Source: Kitasatospora sp. DSM 101779 (lineage in GTDB: Bacteria; Actinomycetota; Actinomycetes; Streptomycetales; Streptomycetaceae). Taken from it: a stretch of DNA of 64,000 nt. Every line of letters starts with the position of its first letter. The stretch's first letter is position 1. The notes beneath the pieces are model-generated. The model ran no database searches and had not been told where the DNA came from. It saw only the letters and a list, made by a program, of their open reading frames with translations. Position numbers and translations under genes: made by a program. The stretch lies in NCBI RefSeq assembly GCF_025655475.1, contig NZ_JAHTIK010000001.1, positions 8,248,606 to 8,312,605 on the forward strand. The letters run 5' to 3'. This document shows positions 46,103 through 51,583 of this stretch, piece by piece.

Positions 46103-46617
46103 TCATGCGAGGGCGGTGGCGGCCAGGGCGAGGGCGGCGGCGCCGAGGACGACGACGTGGCGGGCGTTCTGCAGGACCCACACCCTGCGCGGGAAGCCGG
46201 ACTCGGCGGACTTCAGCAGGGCGGCGACGTCGATCCGGACCAGGTCCGGGTCGCCCTTGCGGGCGAAGGCCGCCTTCACCGACGAGGTGGCGGTCAGATT
46301 GCTGTAGAGAATCACGCAGTTGATGGCCGGGACCAGCCCGAGGACGATCCAGTTCAGCAAGCCGGCCCAGGAGCTGCCGGTGAGGTTCAGGGCGGCGGTG
46401 ACGCCCAGCACGGTGGCGCGATCGACACCGGCGCCCAGGTCTCGTGGCCGCCGGCGTCGAAGCGCATCCCGTTCTCCTCCAGCACGGTGGTCCGCACCCC
46501 CTGGCGCCGCAGCTCGGCGTGGGCGGCGGCGGTGGCCCCGAAGCGGGCCCGGACGACCGGGATGCTGACGAAGGCGCCGGCGACGGGCAGCTGCCTGGCG
46601 GCGATGAAGACGTTCAC
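46103..46617 (-). pseudogene. small membrane protein in the TetR regulon (one frameshift)
   Basis: The GTG at 46617 follows GAGGGAG. The frame reads NVFIAARQLPVAGAFVSIPV to HETWA, shifts by one base near 46435, and continues GVDRATVLGVTAALNLTGSS with a membrane helix (WIVLGLVPAINCVILYSNL) and a second helix at the end (HVVVLGAAALALAATALA). The length is about 171 residues and the family is unknown. It is divergent from the TetR gene and shares its promoter region, which holds two copies of the 17-bp operator, so it is a likely TetR target. If the shift is an assembly error, it is an intact gene. Confidence 0.55.
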
Positions 46618-46662: not shown

Positions 46663-46679
46663 CTTGAACTATGTGCAAG
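46663..46679. promoter_or_regulatory. TetR operator-like site 1
   Basis: CTTGAACTATGTGCAAG fits the palindromic pattern CTTGnACnnnGTnCAAG and lies in the tetR/membrane-gene divergent region. Confidence 0.7.
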
Positions 46680-46685
46680 ATGCTT

Positions 46686-46702
46686 CCTGAACTTTGTGCA
46701 GG
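46686..46702. promoter_or_regulatory. TetR operator-like site 2
   Basis: CCTGAACTTTGTGCAGG is the same pattern with compensating C/G ends, 23 bases from site 1. It overlaps the -35 (TTGTGC, 46695-46700) of the tetR promoter, whose -10 is TATCGT (46718-46723). Confidence 0.7.
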
Positions 46703-46729
46703 AGGATGCGGCCGCCCTATCGTGGGCCC

Positions 46730-47428
46730 ATGCCACGCAACACGCTCACGCGCGACCAGATCATCCGCACCGCCGTCGAGCTGCTCGACGAGGAAGGCCT
46801 GGAAGGCCTCAACATGCGCAGCCTCGGCAAGCGCCTGGACAGCGCGGCCACCGCGGTCTACTGGCACGTCAAGAACAAGGATGAACTCGTCCTGCAGGCC
46901 GCGGACCTGGTCTGGCACGAGATCGAGCTGCCCGACCCCGGCCTGCCCGAGGACTGGTGCGAGGCTGCCATCGCACTCGCCGTCGACCTGCACGAGATGT
47001 TCGAGCGCCATCCGTGGCTGGTGCAGGCGTTCGGCTCCTACCTCTTCTACGGCCGGGGTAAGGCGCGGTACGACGACCACTGCCTCGCCCTGTACGAGCG
47101 GGCCGGGTTCGCCCCCGCCGACGCCGACCGCATCGCTGCGAGTGTTTTCACCTACGTGCTCGGCAATGGGCTCGGCCTGGCCGCCACGGTCTCCCTCAAT
47201 CGGCGCCTGAGCCGGGACGGACAGGACCCGCAGGAGCTCATCGCAGCCACCATGGCCAAGGCCGCCGAGGTCGCCCAGGAGTTCCCCCGCCTTCGCGCGC
47301 GCCTGGCCGAGCCCATCGCCGCCGACTACGCCGCGGCCCCCGAGCACACCCTCGAACGCGGCCTTCGCGCCCTCCTCGCCGGGATGGAAGCCGAACTCCC
47401 CGTCGGTGAATGCGACGCGGACGCGTAG
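46730..47428 (+). CDS. TetR/AcrR-family repressor
   Basis: This encodes 232 residues. The N-terminal helix-turn-helix (TRDQIIRTAVELLDEEGLEG, then AATAVYWHVKNKDEL) and the C-terminal ligand domain fit the TetR_C group (class I TetR-like). The start is supported by the reading frame, while no ribosome site is visible. A TTGTGC-17-TATCGT promoter places the expected transcription start on the A of the ATG, so the mRNA is probably leaderless. Five 17-bp palindromes upstream of this gene and of the downstream serine hydrolase are its probable operators. It likely autoregulates and controls both neighbours. Confidence 0.92.
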   Translation: MPRNTLTRDQIIRTAVELLDEEGLEGLNMRSLGKRLDSAATAVYWHVKNKDELVLQAADLVWHEIELPDPGLPEDWCEAAIALAVDLHEMFERHPWLVQAFGSYLFYGRGKARYDDHCLALYERAGFAPADADRIAASVFTYVLGNGLGLAATVSLNRRLSRDGQDPQELIAATMAKAAEVAQEFPRLRARLAEPIAADYAAAPEHTLERGLRALLAGMEAELPVGECDADA

Positions 47429-47452
47429 GGGTACCGCTCGGGCCGGCATCGA

Positions 47453-47469
47453 CTTGCACTGTGTTCAAG
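47453..47469. promoter_or_regulatory. TetR operator-like site 3
   Basis: CTTGCACTGTGTTCAAG is a full match to CTTGnACnnnGTnCAAG, just after the tetR stop and upstream of the serine hydrolase. Confidence 0.7.
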
Positions 47470-47475
47470 AAACCT

Positions 47476-47492
47476 CTTGTACTTTGCTCAAG
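47476..47492. promoter_or_regulatory. TetR operator-like site 4 overlapping a -35 box
   Basis: CTTGTACTTTGCTCAAG lies 23 bases from site 3, the same spacing as sites 1 and 2. It contains TTGTAC (47477-47482), which is 17 bases from TAGCTT (47500-47505), a good principal-sigma promoter for the hydrolase gene. Confidence 0.7.
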
Positions 47493-47507
47493 CTCTCGCT
47501 AGCTTCA

Positions 47508-47524
47508 CTTGAACAAAGTGAAAG
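47508..47524. promoter_or_regulatory. TetR operator-like site 5
   Basis: CTTGAACAAAGTGAAAG has one good and one degenerate half. It covers the expected transcription start of the hydrolase promoter. Confidence 0.5.
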
Positions 47525-47590: not shown

Positions 47591-48943
47591 ATGTCACGCG
47601 ATGCACTGGAAGAGTTCGTCGAGGCGCAGGCCAAGGAATTCGGCATCCCGGGTGTGGCGGTGGGGGTCTGGATGGACGGGCGCGAGCTGACCGCCTGTCA
47701 CGGTGTGACCAGCATCGACAACCCGCTGCCCGTCGACCGGGAGACCCTGTTCGTGCTGGGCTCGGTCACCAAGACCTACACCGCGACCGCGATCATGCGG
47801 CTCGTTGAGGAGGGGCGGGTTGAGCTGGACGCGCCGGTCCGCCGCTACGTTCCCGAACTCCGGCTCCCCGACGAGGACGCAGCCGCGCGGATCACCCTCC
47901 TGAGCCTGCTCAACCACACCGCCGGGCTGGACACCCGGATGGTTTTCGACAGCGGAGACGGAGACGACGCGCTGGCCAGCGAGGTGGCCCAGATGGCCGA
48001 GGTGGCGCTGGTCGGCCCGGTCGGGGGCCGTGCCTCCTACAGCCAGCTCGGCTACAACCTACTCGGCCGGGTCATCGAGAACGTCACCGGCGAGACCTAC
48101 GAGGCCGCCGTCGCCGCGCTCGTCCTGGAGCCGGCCGGCCTCGACAACAGCGTCTTCACCGCCGGACAGGCCATCACCCGCCGGTTCGCCGTGGGCCATA
48201 ACCTCGCCGACGGGACGCTCAAGGTTGCCCGGACCTGGAAGGACACCCGCGGCAACAACCCGGGCGGCGGCCTGGCGTCCTCGGTCTCCGACCAGCTGCG
48301 CTGGGCCCGGTTCCACCTCGGCGGCGGTGACCTGGCGCGCCGGATGCAGGAGCCGACGGTGGAACTGCACGGCTCCACTCTCGGTGACGCCATCGGCCTC
48401 GGCTGGTTCCTGCGCGACGTGGACGGCGTGCGCACCGTCGGGCACGGCGGTTCGACCAACGGCCAGTTCGCCGACCTGCTGCTGGTCCCGGAGCGGGACT
48501 TCGCCGTCGTCGCGGTGTCCAACGCCGGTCCCGACAACGGGCTGAAGTTCAACCAGGCCGTGATCCGCTGGGCCCTCGAACACTACCTCGGCGTGGCCGA
48601 GCGCGACCCCGAGCCGCTCCCGTATGACCCACAGCGCGCTCAGGAGATCACCGGGCACTACGAGAACGAGTTCATGACCCTGATCATCGACACCGACGGT
48701 GACACGATGACGCTCGAATGCCGGATCAAGCCGGAGATCCGCGCGGCAGCCGAGCGGGAGCTGCCGGCGGACCTGCCGCCGGCCGGCCTCGGCCTGCTCC
48801 CCGGAAGCGGCGACGTGTACATCGTCACCGGCGGCGGCCTGATCGGCCAGCGCGGCTTCCTCACCCGCGACGCCGACGGCGCCATCATCGGGGCGGACCT
48901 GGCCGGACGGTACTTCAGCCGGGTCCCGACACCTGGCGAATGA
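47591..48943 (+). CDS. serine hydrolase of the class C beta-lactamase fold
   Basis: This encodes 450 residues; GGAGGGAAC precedes the ATG. The catalytic SxxK is S58-V-T-K61. The second motif is Y150-S-Q rather than the YxN of true AmpC enzymes, and the third is HGG (285-287). No signal peptide is present, so it is cytoplasmic. A C-terminal lipocalin-like beta domain (about 360-450) is typical of esterase or peptidase members of this fold. It is more likely an esterase or D-aminopeptidase-type enzyme than a resistance factor. Three operator-like sites in its promoter put it under the TetR regulator. Confidence 0.88.
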   Translation: MSRDALEEFVEAQAKEFGIPGVAVGVWMDGRELTACHGVTSIDNPLPVDRETLFVLGSVTKTYTATAIMRLVEEGRVELDAPVRRYVPELRLPDEDAAARITLLSLLNHTAGLDTRMVFDSGDGDDALASEVAQMAEVALVGPVGGRASYSQLGYNLLGRVIENVTGETYEAAVAALVLEPAGLDNSVFTAGQAITRRFAVGHNLADGTLKVARTWKDTRGNNPGGGLASSVSDQLRWARFHLGGGDLARRMQEPTVELHGSTLGDAIGLGWFLRDVDGVRTVGHGGSTNGQFADLLLVPERDFAVVAVSNAGPDNGLKFNQAVIRWALEHYLGVAERDPEPLPYDPQRAQEITGHYENEFMTLIIDTDGDTMTLECRIKPEIRAAAERELPADLPPAGLGLLPGSGDVYIVTGGGLIGQRGFLTRDADGAIIGADLAGRYFSRVPTPGE

Positions 48944-49485: not shown

Positions 49486-50649
49486 ATGGCCAGGCCGGTG
49501 TGGACGGGGGTGCTGACGTTCGGGCTCGTGACCGTGCCGGTGGCGCTGTACACGGCGACGGAGTCGCACACGGTGCGCTTCCACCAGCTGGAGCGCGGCA
49601 CCTCGGACCGGGTGCGCAACCGGCGGGTGAACGAGCGCACCGGCGAGGAGGTCGCCTTCGGCGACATCGTGAAGGGCTACGAGGTCGGCGACGGCGAGTA
49701 CGTGGTCGTCGAGCCGCAGGAGCTGGAGCAGATCTCGCCTGGCCGCTCCCGGACGATCGACGTCTCGGGGTTCGTCGACCTCGGCGAGGTCGACCCGATC
49801 TTCTTCGACAAGACGTACTACCTCGGGCCGAAGGGCAAGGAGTACGCCAAGATCTACCAGCTGCTGACGAAGGCGCTGGAGCGCTCCAACCGGGCGGGGC
49901 TGGCGATGTTCTCCATGCGCGGCAAGGAGTACCTGACCGCGGTGCGCGCCGAGGACGGCCTGCTGGAACTGCACACCATGCACTTCGCCGACGAGGTCCG
50001 CGACCCGCGCCGCGAGATCGACGACCTGCCCACCGGTGACGCCAAGTTCTCCCCGCAGGAGTTGCAGACGGCCGAGCAGCTGGTGGAGATGCTCGCCGTC
50101 GACTGGGACCCCGACGAGTACCACGACACCTTCGAGGAACAGGTCCGCAAGCTCATCGAGGACAAGCAGGCCGGCCGCGAGATCACCGTCTCCGCCGGGC
50201 CCGCACCCGAGTCCACGAACGTGATCGACCTGATGGACGTGCTGCGGCGCAGCGTGGACGCCGCCCGCTCCGGCAAGTCCGCGTCCGCGGACGCCGGCGG
50301 CCAGGCAGAGGAACCGACCGCGAAGGACTCCGCGAAGGTGGCGGGCGGGCGGCGCGGCCGCGCGAGCGCCCCAGCCCCGGCGTCGCACCGGGCGCCGAAG
50401 GCGAAGGCCGGGACGAAGTCCACCTCCACCGCGGCGAAGGCCGGCAAGCAGACCGCGGCGTCGAAGAAGCGCGTCACCGCCGGCGGCAAGGTGGCGGCCG
50501 AGGACCTGTCGAAGCTGACCAAGGGCGAACTCTACAAGCGCGCCACCGATCTCGACATCCCGCACCGCTCCACCATGACCCGCGACCAGCTCCAGGACGC
50601 CGTCGCCAAGGCCACCCGCAGCAGCGGCCGCCTGCGCCGCGCCTCCTGA
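49486..50649 (+). CDS. ku: Ku protein of bacterial non-homologous end joining
   Basis: This encodes 387 residues; GGAGGAGG precedes the ATG. The Ku core (1-260) starts ARPVWTGVLTFGLVTVPVAL and includes EVDPIFFDKTYYLGP and FEEQVRKLIEDKQAG. A long Lys/Ala-rich tail (about 280-345) is followed by a Rho-N/SAP-like helical domain (KLTKGELYKRATDLDI, about 345-380), both likely to bind DNA. Ku forms a ring on double-strand ends and recruits the ligase. The next gene, 19 bases on, is an ATP-dependent ligase, making a compact repair pair that may act during spore dormancy. Confidence 0.95.
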   Translation: MARPVWTGVLTFGLVTVPVALYTATESHTVRFHQLERGTSDRVRNRRVNERTGEEVAFGDIVKGYEVGDGEYVVVEPQELEQISPGRSRTIDVSGFVDLGEVDPIFFDKTYYLGPKGKEYAKIYQLLTKALERSNRAGLAMFSMRGKEYLTAVRAEDGLLELHTMHFADEVRDPRREIDDLPTGDAKFSPQELQTAEQLVEMLAVDWDPDEYHDTFEEQVRKLIEDKQAGREITVSAGPAPESTNVIDLMDVLRRSVDAARSGKSASADAGGQAEEPTAKDSAKVAGGRRGRASAPAPASHRAPKAKAGTKSTSTAAKAGKQTAASKKRVTAGGKVAAEDLSKLTKGELYKRATDLDIPHRSTMTRDQLQDAVAKATRSSGRLRRAS

Positions 50650-50668
50650 CCACCGGACCCCGCACACC

Positions 50669-51583
50669 ATGGCGACATCGAAGAAGCCCGCCACCTCCTC
50701 CCCGGTCACCGTGCGGCCGCCGGTGGAGCTGGTGCGCCCCGCCTCCTGGCCGCTGCTGCCCGCGGAGCGCGAGCTGCCCGGCCCGGTACTGTTCCAGCCG
50801 AAGATGGACGGCTTCCGCGCCGCCGGCTTCCACCTCGACGCGGGCCGCACCCTGCTGCAGTCCCGCTCCGGCAGAGACCTGACCGCCGACTTCCCCGACA
50901 TCGCCCGCGCCCTCACCACGCTCCCGGAGGGCACCGTCGTCGACGGCGAACTCGTCGCCTGGAACGGTGCCCACATCGACTTCACCCAACTGCTGCGCAC
51001 CCCGGCCGCCCGAGCCCGGGACGGCATCCACGTCACCTACGTGGTCTTCGACCTGCTGGCGGAGCCCGGCCGGGACCTGCGTGCCCGGACGGCGGGGGAG
51101 CGGTGGGAGGTGCTGTCGCGGCTGATGGCGGGGGTGCGCCCGCCGCTGCAGCAGATCATCGCCACCACCGACCGCACCGAGGCGCTGCGCTGGCTGGAGC
51201 AGATGCAGCCCTTCGGCGTCGAGGGCCTGGTCGTGAAGACCCTGGACGGCCGGTACCTGCCCGGCGTTCGCGCCGGCTGGTGGAAGGTGAGGCACGCCGA
51301 CACCACCGACGCCGACCTGGTCGGCATCACCGGCCCGGTCACCCGCCCCGAGGCCTGCCTGGTGCGCCTGCCCGACGGCCGTCAGGAGGTCACCGCCCCG
51401 CGGCTGACCGGACCCCAGGCCCAGCAGGTCGCCGCCGCGGTCGCCGGCCGACTCGACCCGGCCACCGCCGGACCAGCCGCGCGGATCCACTGGGTCGCCG
51501 AACCGCAGCCCGTCGTCGAGGTGCTGGCCGGCAGCGGCCGCCACGGCGACGTCCGCTACATCCGCCTCCGCCCGCCCGACTGA
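50669..51583 (+). CDS. ATP-dependent DNA ligase (LigC-like)
   Basis: This encodes 304 residues. The adenylation lysine is K45 in QPKMDGFR (motif I). Further nucleotidyltransferase motifs are DGELVAW, VVFDLLA and EGLVVKTLDG, followed by an OB-fold (about 205-304). It has no polymerase or nuclease domain, unlike LigD, so it is a stand-alone ligase of the LigC type. It lies directly behind ku and is almost certainly co-transcribed. It seals nicked double-strand breaks with ATP. Confidence 0.93.
   Translation: MATSKKPATSSPVTVRPPVELVRPASWPLLPAERELPGPVLFQPKMDGFRAAGFHLDAGRTLLQSRSGRDLTADFPDIARALTTLPEGTVVDGELVAWNGAHIDFTQLLRTPAARARDGIHVTYVVFDLLAEPGRDLRARTAGERWEVLSRLMAGVRPPLQQIIATTDRTEALRWLEQMQPFGVEGLVVKTLDGRYLPGVRAGWWKVRHADTTDADLVGITGPVTRPEACLVRLPDGRQEVTAPRLTGPQAQQVAAAVAGRLDPATAGPAARIHWVAEPQPVVEVLAGSGRHGDVRYIRLRPPD

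Follow-up and report, generated by a model that had tools for sequence, protein, structure and literature searches.

Within the window, the 64,000-nucleotide stretch of Kitasatospora sp. DSM 101779 DNA analysed here, the promoters of a tetR gene (46730-47428, + strand) and of a serine hydrolase gene (47591-48943, + strand) downstream of it carry between them five related inverted repeats of 17 bp. Divergent from tetR is the remnant of a membrane-protein gene (46103-46617, - strand; GTG start at about 46617, stop at 46103-46105), which is frameshifted around 46418-46443. Further along, downstream of the hydrolase at 49494-51583, a Ku-like gene is followed by an ATP-dependent DNA ligase-like gene, an end-joining pair to judge from their sequences.

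The repressor and the hydrolase

The 232-aa tetR product carries TetR_N (PF00440, 34.7 bits against a Pfam cut-off of 24) and TetR_C_1 (PF02909, 47.8 bits against 21), with the recognition helix AATAVYWHV. As in TetR/AcrR repressors with a TetR_C_1 domain, palindromic operators overlap its own promoter and that of a target. Among proteins of solved structure its sequence comes nearest to 5OJX, SimR, and ActR, and it belongs to a known kind, the TetR_C_1 repressors such as the latter two. The closest is the TetR family regulator of PDB 5OJX/5OJY (86.9 bits over residues 3-219; helix APMSLYWHV), for which a literature search found no paper on function or operator. The TetR-family repressor of the SimR/SimX pair of the simocyclinone producer (PDB 2Y2Z, 3ZQL; 60.7 bits) resembles the window system in having two operators between repressor and target and in a ligand that abolishes DNA binding (PMC5812520). 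It differs in its target, an MFS exporter in a biosynthetic cluster, and in its recognition helix (GTMSLYYYV versus AATAVYWHV); the likeness drawn here concerns protein and layout. ActR of the ActR/ActA pair of S. coelicolor (PDB 2OPT; 55 bits) is likewise of the TetR family and represses a divergent gene less than 200 bp away (PMC3511530), but its target is an exporter and its helix is GHASLYAHV; here too the comparison is between the proteins and their layout. In Tn10 TetR/tetA, too, palindromic operators are repeated in the stretch that separates regulator from target (PMC3511530), and the recognition-helix region is similar, yet operator and target are different there, and the window protein scores 63.2 bits against the 265-bit cut-off of NCBIfam NF010319, which rejects a tetracycline repressor proper.

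The 450-aa hydrolase (PF00144, 214.5 bits; S58-x-x-K61, Y150-S-Q152, H285-G-G) aligns along its entire length with the IS11 carboxylesterase (PDB 7SPN; 299.7 bits, E 3.4e-88), and its C-terminal region aligns to the lipocalin domain of that enzyme (PMC9972953). The Ser-x-x-Lys and Tyr residues of IS11 are conserved, S58, K61, and Y150 being invariant across 60 hydrolase sequences. Unlike IS11, which comes from Chloroflexota and has Tyr160-x-Asn162, all 60 have Gln in place of the Asn; this Tyr-Ser-Gln is a possible hallmark of a subfamily. A class C beta-lactamase proper is rejected (NCBIfam NF033085, 106.8 bits against a cut-off of 415). The initial annotation's description of a cytoplasmic enzyme of beta-lactamase fold agrees with what we find: the fold is that of a beta-lactamase and there is no obvious signal peptide.

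Operators and promoters

Relative to the pattern CTTGnACnnnGTnCAAG, operator 1 (CTTGAACTATGTGCAAG, 46663-46679) and operator 3 (CTTGCACTGTGTTCAAG, 47453-47469) are exact, operator 4 (CTTGTACTTTGCTCAAG, 47476-47492) and operator 5 (CTTGAACAAAGTGAAAG, 47508-47524) have one mismatch each, and operator 2 (CCTGAACTTTGTGCAGG, 46686-46702) has two; no strand is assigned to any of them. The initial annotation had counted five copies of one operator, two upstream of the tetR and membrane-protein genes and three upstream of the hydrolase. All five lie in those places, as related sites of which only two are exact, and the start-to-start spacing is 23 bp in both pairs, as it had said. Operator 5 is placed 32 bp past operator 4.

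The predicted tetR promoter (46694-46723, + strand) consists of TTGTGC (46694-46699) and TATCGT (46718-46723) separated by 18 bp, and the predicted hydrolase promoter (47477-47505, + strand) of TTGTAC (47477-47482) and TAGCTT (47500-47505) separated by 17 bp. The downstream half of operator 2 includes the tetR -35 box, operator 4 includes that of the hydrolase, and the expected hydrolase start point, at about 47512, falls within operator 5. The annotated positions of both -35 boxes, the start point under site 5, and the 17-bp hydrolase spacer are thereby upheld, while the 17-bp spacer claimed for tetR is not. What was called a pair of good promoters draws its support from conservation and not from consensus, since neither passes a strict sigma-70 scan. 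The hydrolase promoter region aligns with those of three relatives (L106, L138, and L139). The place of operator 2, at -44/-45 from the ATG, is the commonest operator position among tetR orthologs. The tetR -10 box ends 6 nt ahead of the ATG, and all 95 of 95 orthologous tetR upstreams have a TAnnnT at a distance of 6-8 nt from the start codon, so the tetR mRNA is probably leaderless.

Is the motif simply common in this genome? At up to two mismatches the window holds six matches where 1.08 are expected, a number reached in none of 100 shuffles, and five of the six are packed into 862 bp. The rest of the 8.5-Mb genome has only four other positions at up to one mismatch (3326658, 2179224, 2179242, and 4909299). 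A narrower pattern, CTTGMACNNNGTKCAAG, gives 39 matches genome-wide at up to two mismatches, five of them at the locus, versus 32 for a control pattern, and its two-mismatch matches outside the locus are near background. Together with an exact-site scan of 27 TetR-positive genomes, described below, these scans rule out a widespread motif, which the initial annotation had named as a finding that would refute its reading. Elsewhere in the same genome, a tandem CTTCTACGGCGTACAAG / CTTGTACACCGTAGAAG lies between an MFS-like and a MarR-like gene (L004:1501-1535; C1:2179224-2179258), with a TetR match of 30% identity about 1.7 kb away; this is a different operator of similar type.

Co-occurrence of repressor, operators, and targets

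Does this TetR own the sites? TetR orthologs (at least 56% identity) came from relatives, from other genomes of the genus, and from a genome collection at species level, giving 95 distinct 130-bp tetR upstreams, in which a site was counted at up to two mismatches. Sites are present in 90 of the 95 (one to four each, mostly three), compared with a shuffled mean of 0.36 and maximum of 3; these sites are related by descent and not independent, and the controls are the recognition helix and detached hydrolases only. Of the five exceptions, three keep a site at the usual tetR-proximal place but with three mismatches, L123 has sites at the promoter of an ABC transporter instead, and L095 has no site in the tetR upstream. 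Orthologs share the recognition helix AATA(V/I)YWH, whereas paralogs have GATSLY(T/R)H, differing at A42 (to S) and W45 (to T/R); 18 such paralogs, at 32-39% identity, are without sites except for one isolated two-mismatch match. A 45%-identical relative with the helix AATAMYWHV retains a site.

Hydrolase orthologs were sought in 299 genomes of the family. Where the hydrolase adjoins the TetR gene, sites are present in 21 of 21 cases, the window included. Seven hydrolases have no TetR gene nearby: four have two exact sites apiece and come from genomes that all hold a TetR ortholog (58-70% identity) elsewhere; the other three have no sites, and their genomes lack such an ortholog or have only the 45% relative. 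When tetR and hydrolase are convergent (L083, L099, L100, and L113), the operators lie at the hydrolase's own promoter. The 27 TetR-positive genomes contain 29 exact sites, every one of them at this system, and no match to the control pattern. A very small regulon follows, with one or two operons of this system per genome.

Repressor, operator, and target travel together across the genomes compared, and from this co-occurrence we infer that the TetR protein binds the sites. Could a different regulator bind the repeats, its nearness to this TetR being coincidental? Binding is read from sequence comparison, yet presence or absence of sites tracks this TetR from genome to genome, detached hydrolases included. 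That co-occurrence leads us to reject another owner, which we consider extremely improbable. On comparative grounds the link between this repressor and its operators is strong, and the evidence points to a real, specific, and conserved TetR autorepressor-operator system of a well-known kind. In Actinomadura barringtoniae, near a tetR-membrane module, two exact operator matches (L111:4702-4718 and L111:4983-4999) fall inside a gene predicted to encode an ArsR/low-molecular-weight phosphatase fusion; they are possibly intragenic operators or chance matches.

The subfamily occurs in Streptomyces, Kitasatospora, Nonomuraea, Planotetraspora, Micromonospora, Nocardia, and others. Within the genus its distribution is patchy, with an ortholog in 10 of 70 genomes; a same-genus genome (L055) and K. 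phosalacinea (L132) are identical in sequence upstream of tetR. The distance between adjacent operators was taken in 146 cases and, with three exceptions, is 22-24, 32-35, or 43-47 bp, a ladder with rungs about 11 bp apart. Most single operators are asymmetric, with one half CTTGAAC and the other CTTGCAC or CTTGTAC, and A-A sites (14) and C-C sites (4) fall far short of the numbers expected if halves paired at random (about 62 and 40, calculated from half-site counts). Cooperative assembly is a possible cause of both regularities, and promoter geometry alone may explain part of them.

A probably lost target, exchanged partners, and a proposed switch

In about 40 relatives the membrane-protein gene is an intact divergent target encoding 171-173 aa. 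The window TetR groups on the tree with that of S. milbemycinicus (L057, 88% identical), a membrane-protein module. Compared with this closest relative, the window is missing exactly 34 bp, which in L057 hold an operator, the spacer, and the -10 box of the membrane gene (TAACGT), a loss such as recombination between two operator repeats would produce. The deleted operator is the proximal one of the membrane gene, and by this alignment operator 1 is what is left of two. Because it is frameshifted and has lost its -10 box and proximal operator, the membrane gene, the apparent ancestral target, is probably dead and no longer a working target in this genome. The initial annotation, which placed it under TetR control, must be amended for this strain.

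An alternative is that the gene is still a functional target and the frameshift a sequencing error. The frameshift is read in one genome only, and the two in-frame pieces have dN/dS values against relatives of 0.25-0.55, overlapping the 0.22-0.35 of intact pairs; no long decay is visible, and the loss is therefore recent or the frameshift an error. The 34-bp deletion, however, removes the -10 box and proximal operator independently of the frameshift, and we regard a live gene as unlikely. The protein itself, intact ortholog included, matches no Pfam family. Intact orthologs such as L057:2240-2755 (- strand; 172 residues) are all-helical. The AlphaFold model of the intact ortholog is a confident one (pLDDT 92.5), but a Foldseek search of it against the PDB returned nothing below E 0.39 and hence suggested no function.

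The hydrolase has other affinities. It is 88-89% identical to the hydrolases of L138 and L139, whose TetRs lie elsewhere on the tree. Upstream of it the window aligns with the sequence between tetR and hydrolase in L106, as far as the L106 tetR start codon. The best reading of the window is that a module of hydrolase and operators was joined behind the tetR of a membrane module, with the older target falling out of use.

What else does this TetR lineage control? The neighbourhoods of 110 orthologs contain the hydrolase (50), the membrane protein (39), an ABC exporter (6), hydrolase and membrane protein together (2), or another partner (13), such as a carboxymuconolactone-decarboxylase (CMD)-family protein in L062. 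A single TetR is accompanied in L176 and in L177 by sites at the membrane gene and also at a hydrolase 2-8 kb away. Four tandem operator-like sites lie directly upstream of a P450 gene (L178:3857-3941) in a genome whose TetR is the 45% relative (L180). Partner labels are strongly clustered on the TetR tree, with 6 changes for the hydrolase, 13 for the membrane protein, and 3 for the ABC exporter on a tree made by a quick method and having many weak branches. ABC exporters, CMD-family proteins, and P450 are partners of detoxification type, and the grouping of exporters, P450, and esterase under a single sensor suggests a response to a toxic compound through a ligand-relieved switch. A more elaborate reading, tentative and on balance doubtful, is that a constant sensor-operator cassette exchanges effectors under one TetR lineage, several dimers assembling cooperatively on one side of the DNA at asymmetric operators in one-turn steps of 23, 34, and 45 bp.

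How might the window system work? We infer binding, repression, ligand release, and a role in detoxification, in the following scheme, to which we assign a probability of about 85%. A TetR homodimer would bind the 17-bp repeats through the half-site CTTG(A/C)AC. Without ligand it would cover the -35 regions of both promoters, its own (probably giving a leaderless transcript) and that of the hydrolase, together with the hydrolase start point, keeping the two genes low. A small molecule entering the C-terminal TetR_C_1 domain would release the repressor, and hydrolase and repressor would then be produced. The hydrolase, an IS11-like esterase of family VIII type, would act on the inducing compound or a related ester or lactone, the membrane gene being a former target. 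TetR-family genes less than 200 bp from a divergent neighbour usually repress that neighbour (PMC3511530); against the scheme, the hydrolase is not divergent in this genome. As it lies downstream of tetR on the same strand, some readthrough into it is possible. Operators 2, 4, and 5 are also imperfect in the window.

With operators on the -35 regions and the expected hydrolase start, the simplest reading of the promoter geometry is steric repression. Some TetR-family proteins activate, AtrA among them (PMC3511530), and this one might be an activator or dual regulator. That its sites sit on the -35 box, spacer, or start point of both promoters, here and in orthologs, is the geometry of steric repression, and we think activation most unlikely.

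A different objection concerns the ligand. TetR could bind the sites and sense a metabolite of the cell itself, such as a signalling ester or lactone, whose level the hydrolase tunes in a feedback loop rather than by detoxification. The one or two operons per genome, the esterase as main partner (50 of 110 orthologs), and the carboxylesterase activity of IS11 (PMC9972953) agree with such a loop. The patchy occurrence in the genus and the swapping of partners, exporters and P450 among them, better fit a xenobiotic or antibiotic response than a core metabolite; we consider an endogenous signal unlikely beside the detoxification switch that we favour.

The operator-TetR system is apparently undescribed, as the initial annotation supposed: no description of the operator appeared in the papers searched, a search by operator letters returned no paper, and one pairing TetR with serine hydrolases or family VIII esterases returned nothing specific. 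An operator and a small regulon can now be assigned to a widespread TetR subfamily, something that sequence alone seldom allows. Through this regulon a single signal connects a membrane-protein family with no Pfam match and a serine hydrolase with the unusual Tyr-Ser-Gln motif, and the identity of the inducer would therefore give the function of both. A further use for the operator-TetR pair could be as an actinobacterial expression switch.
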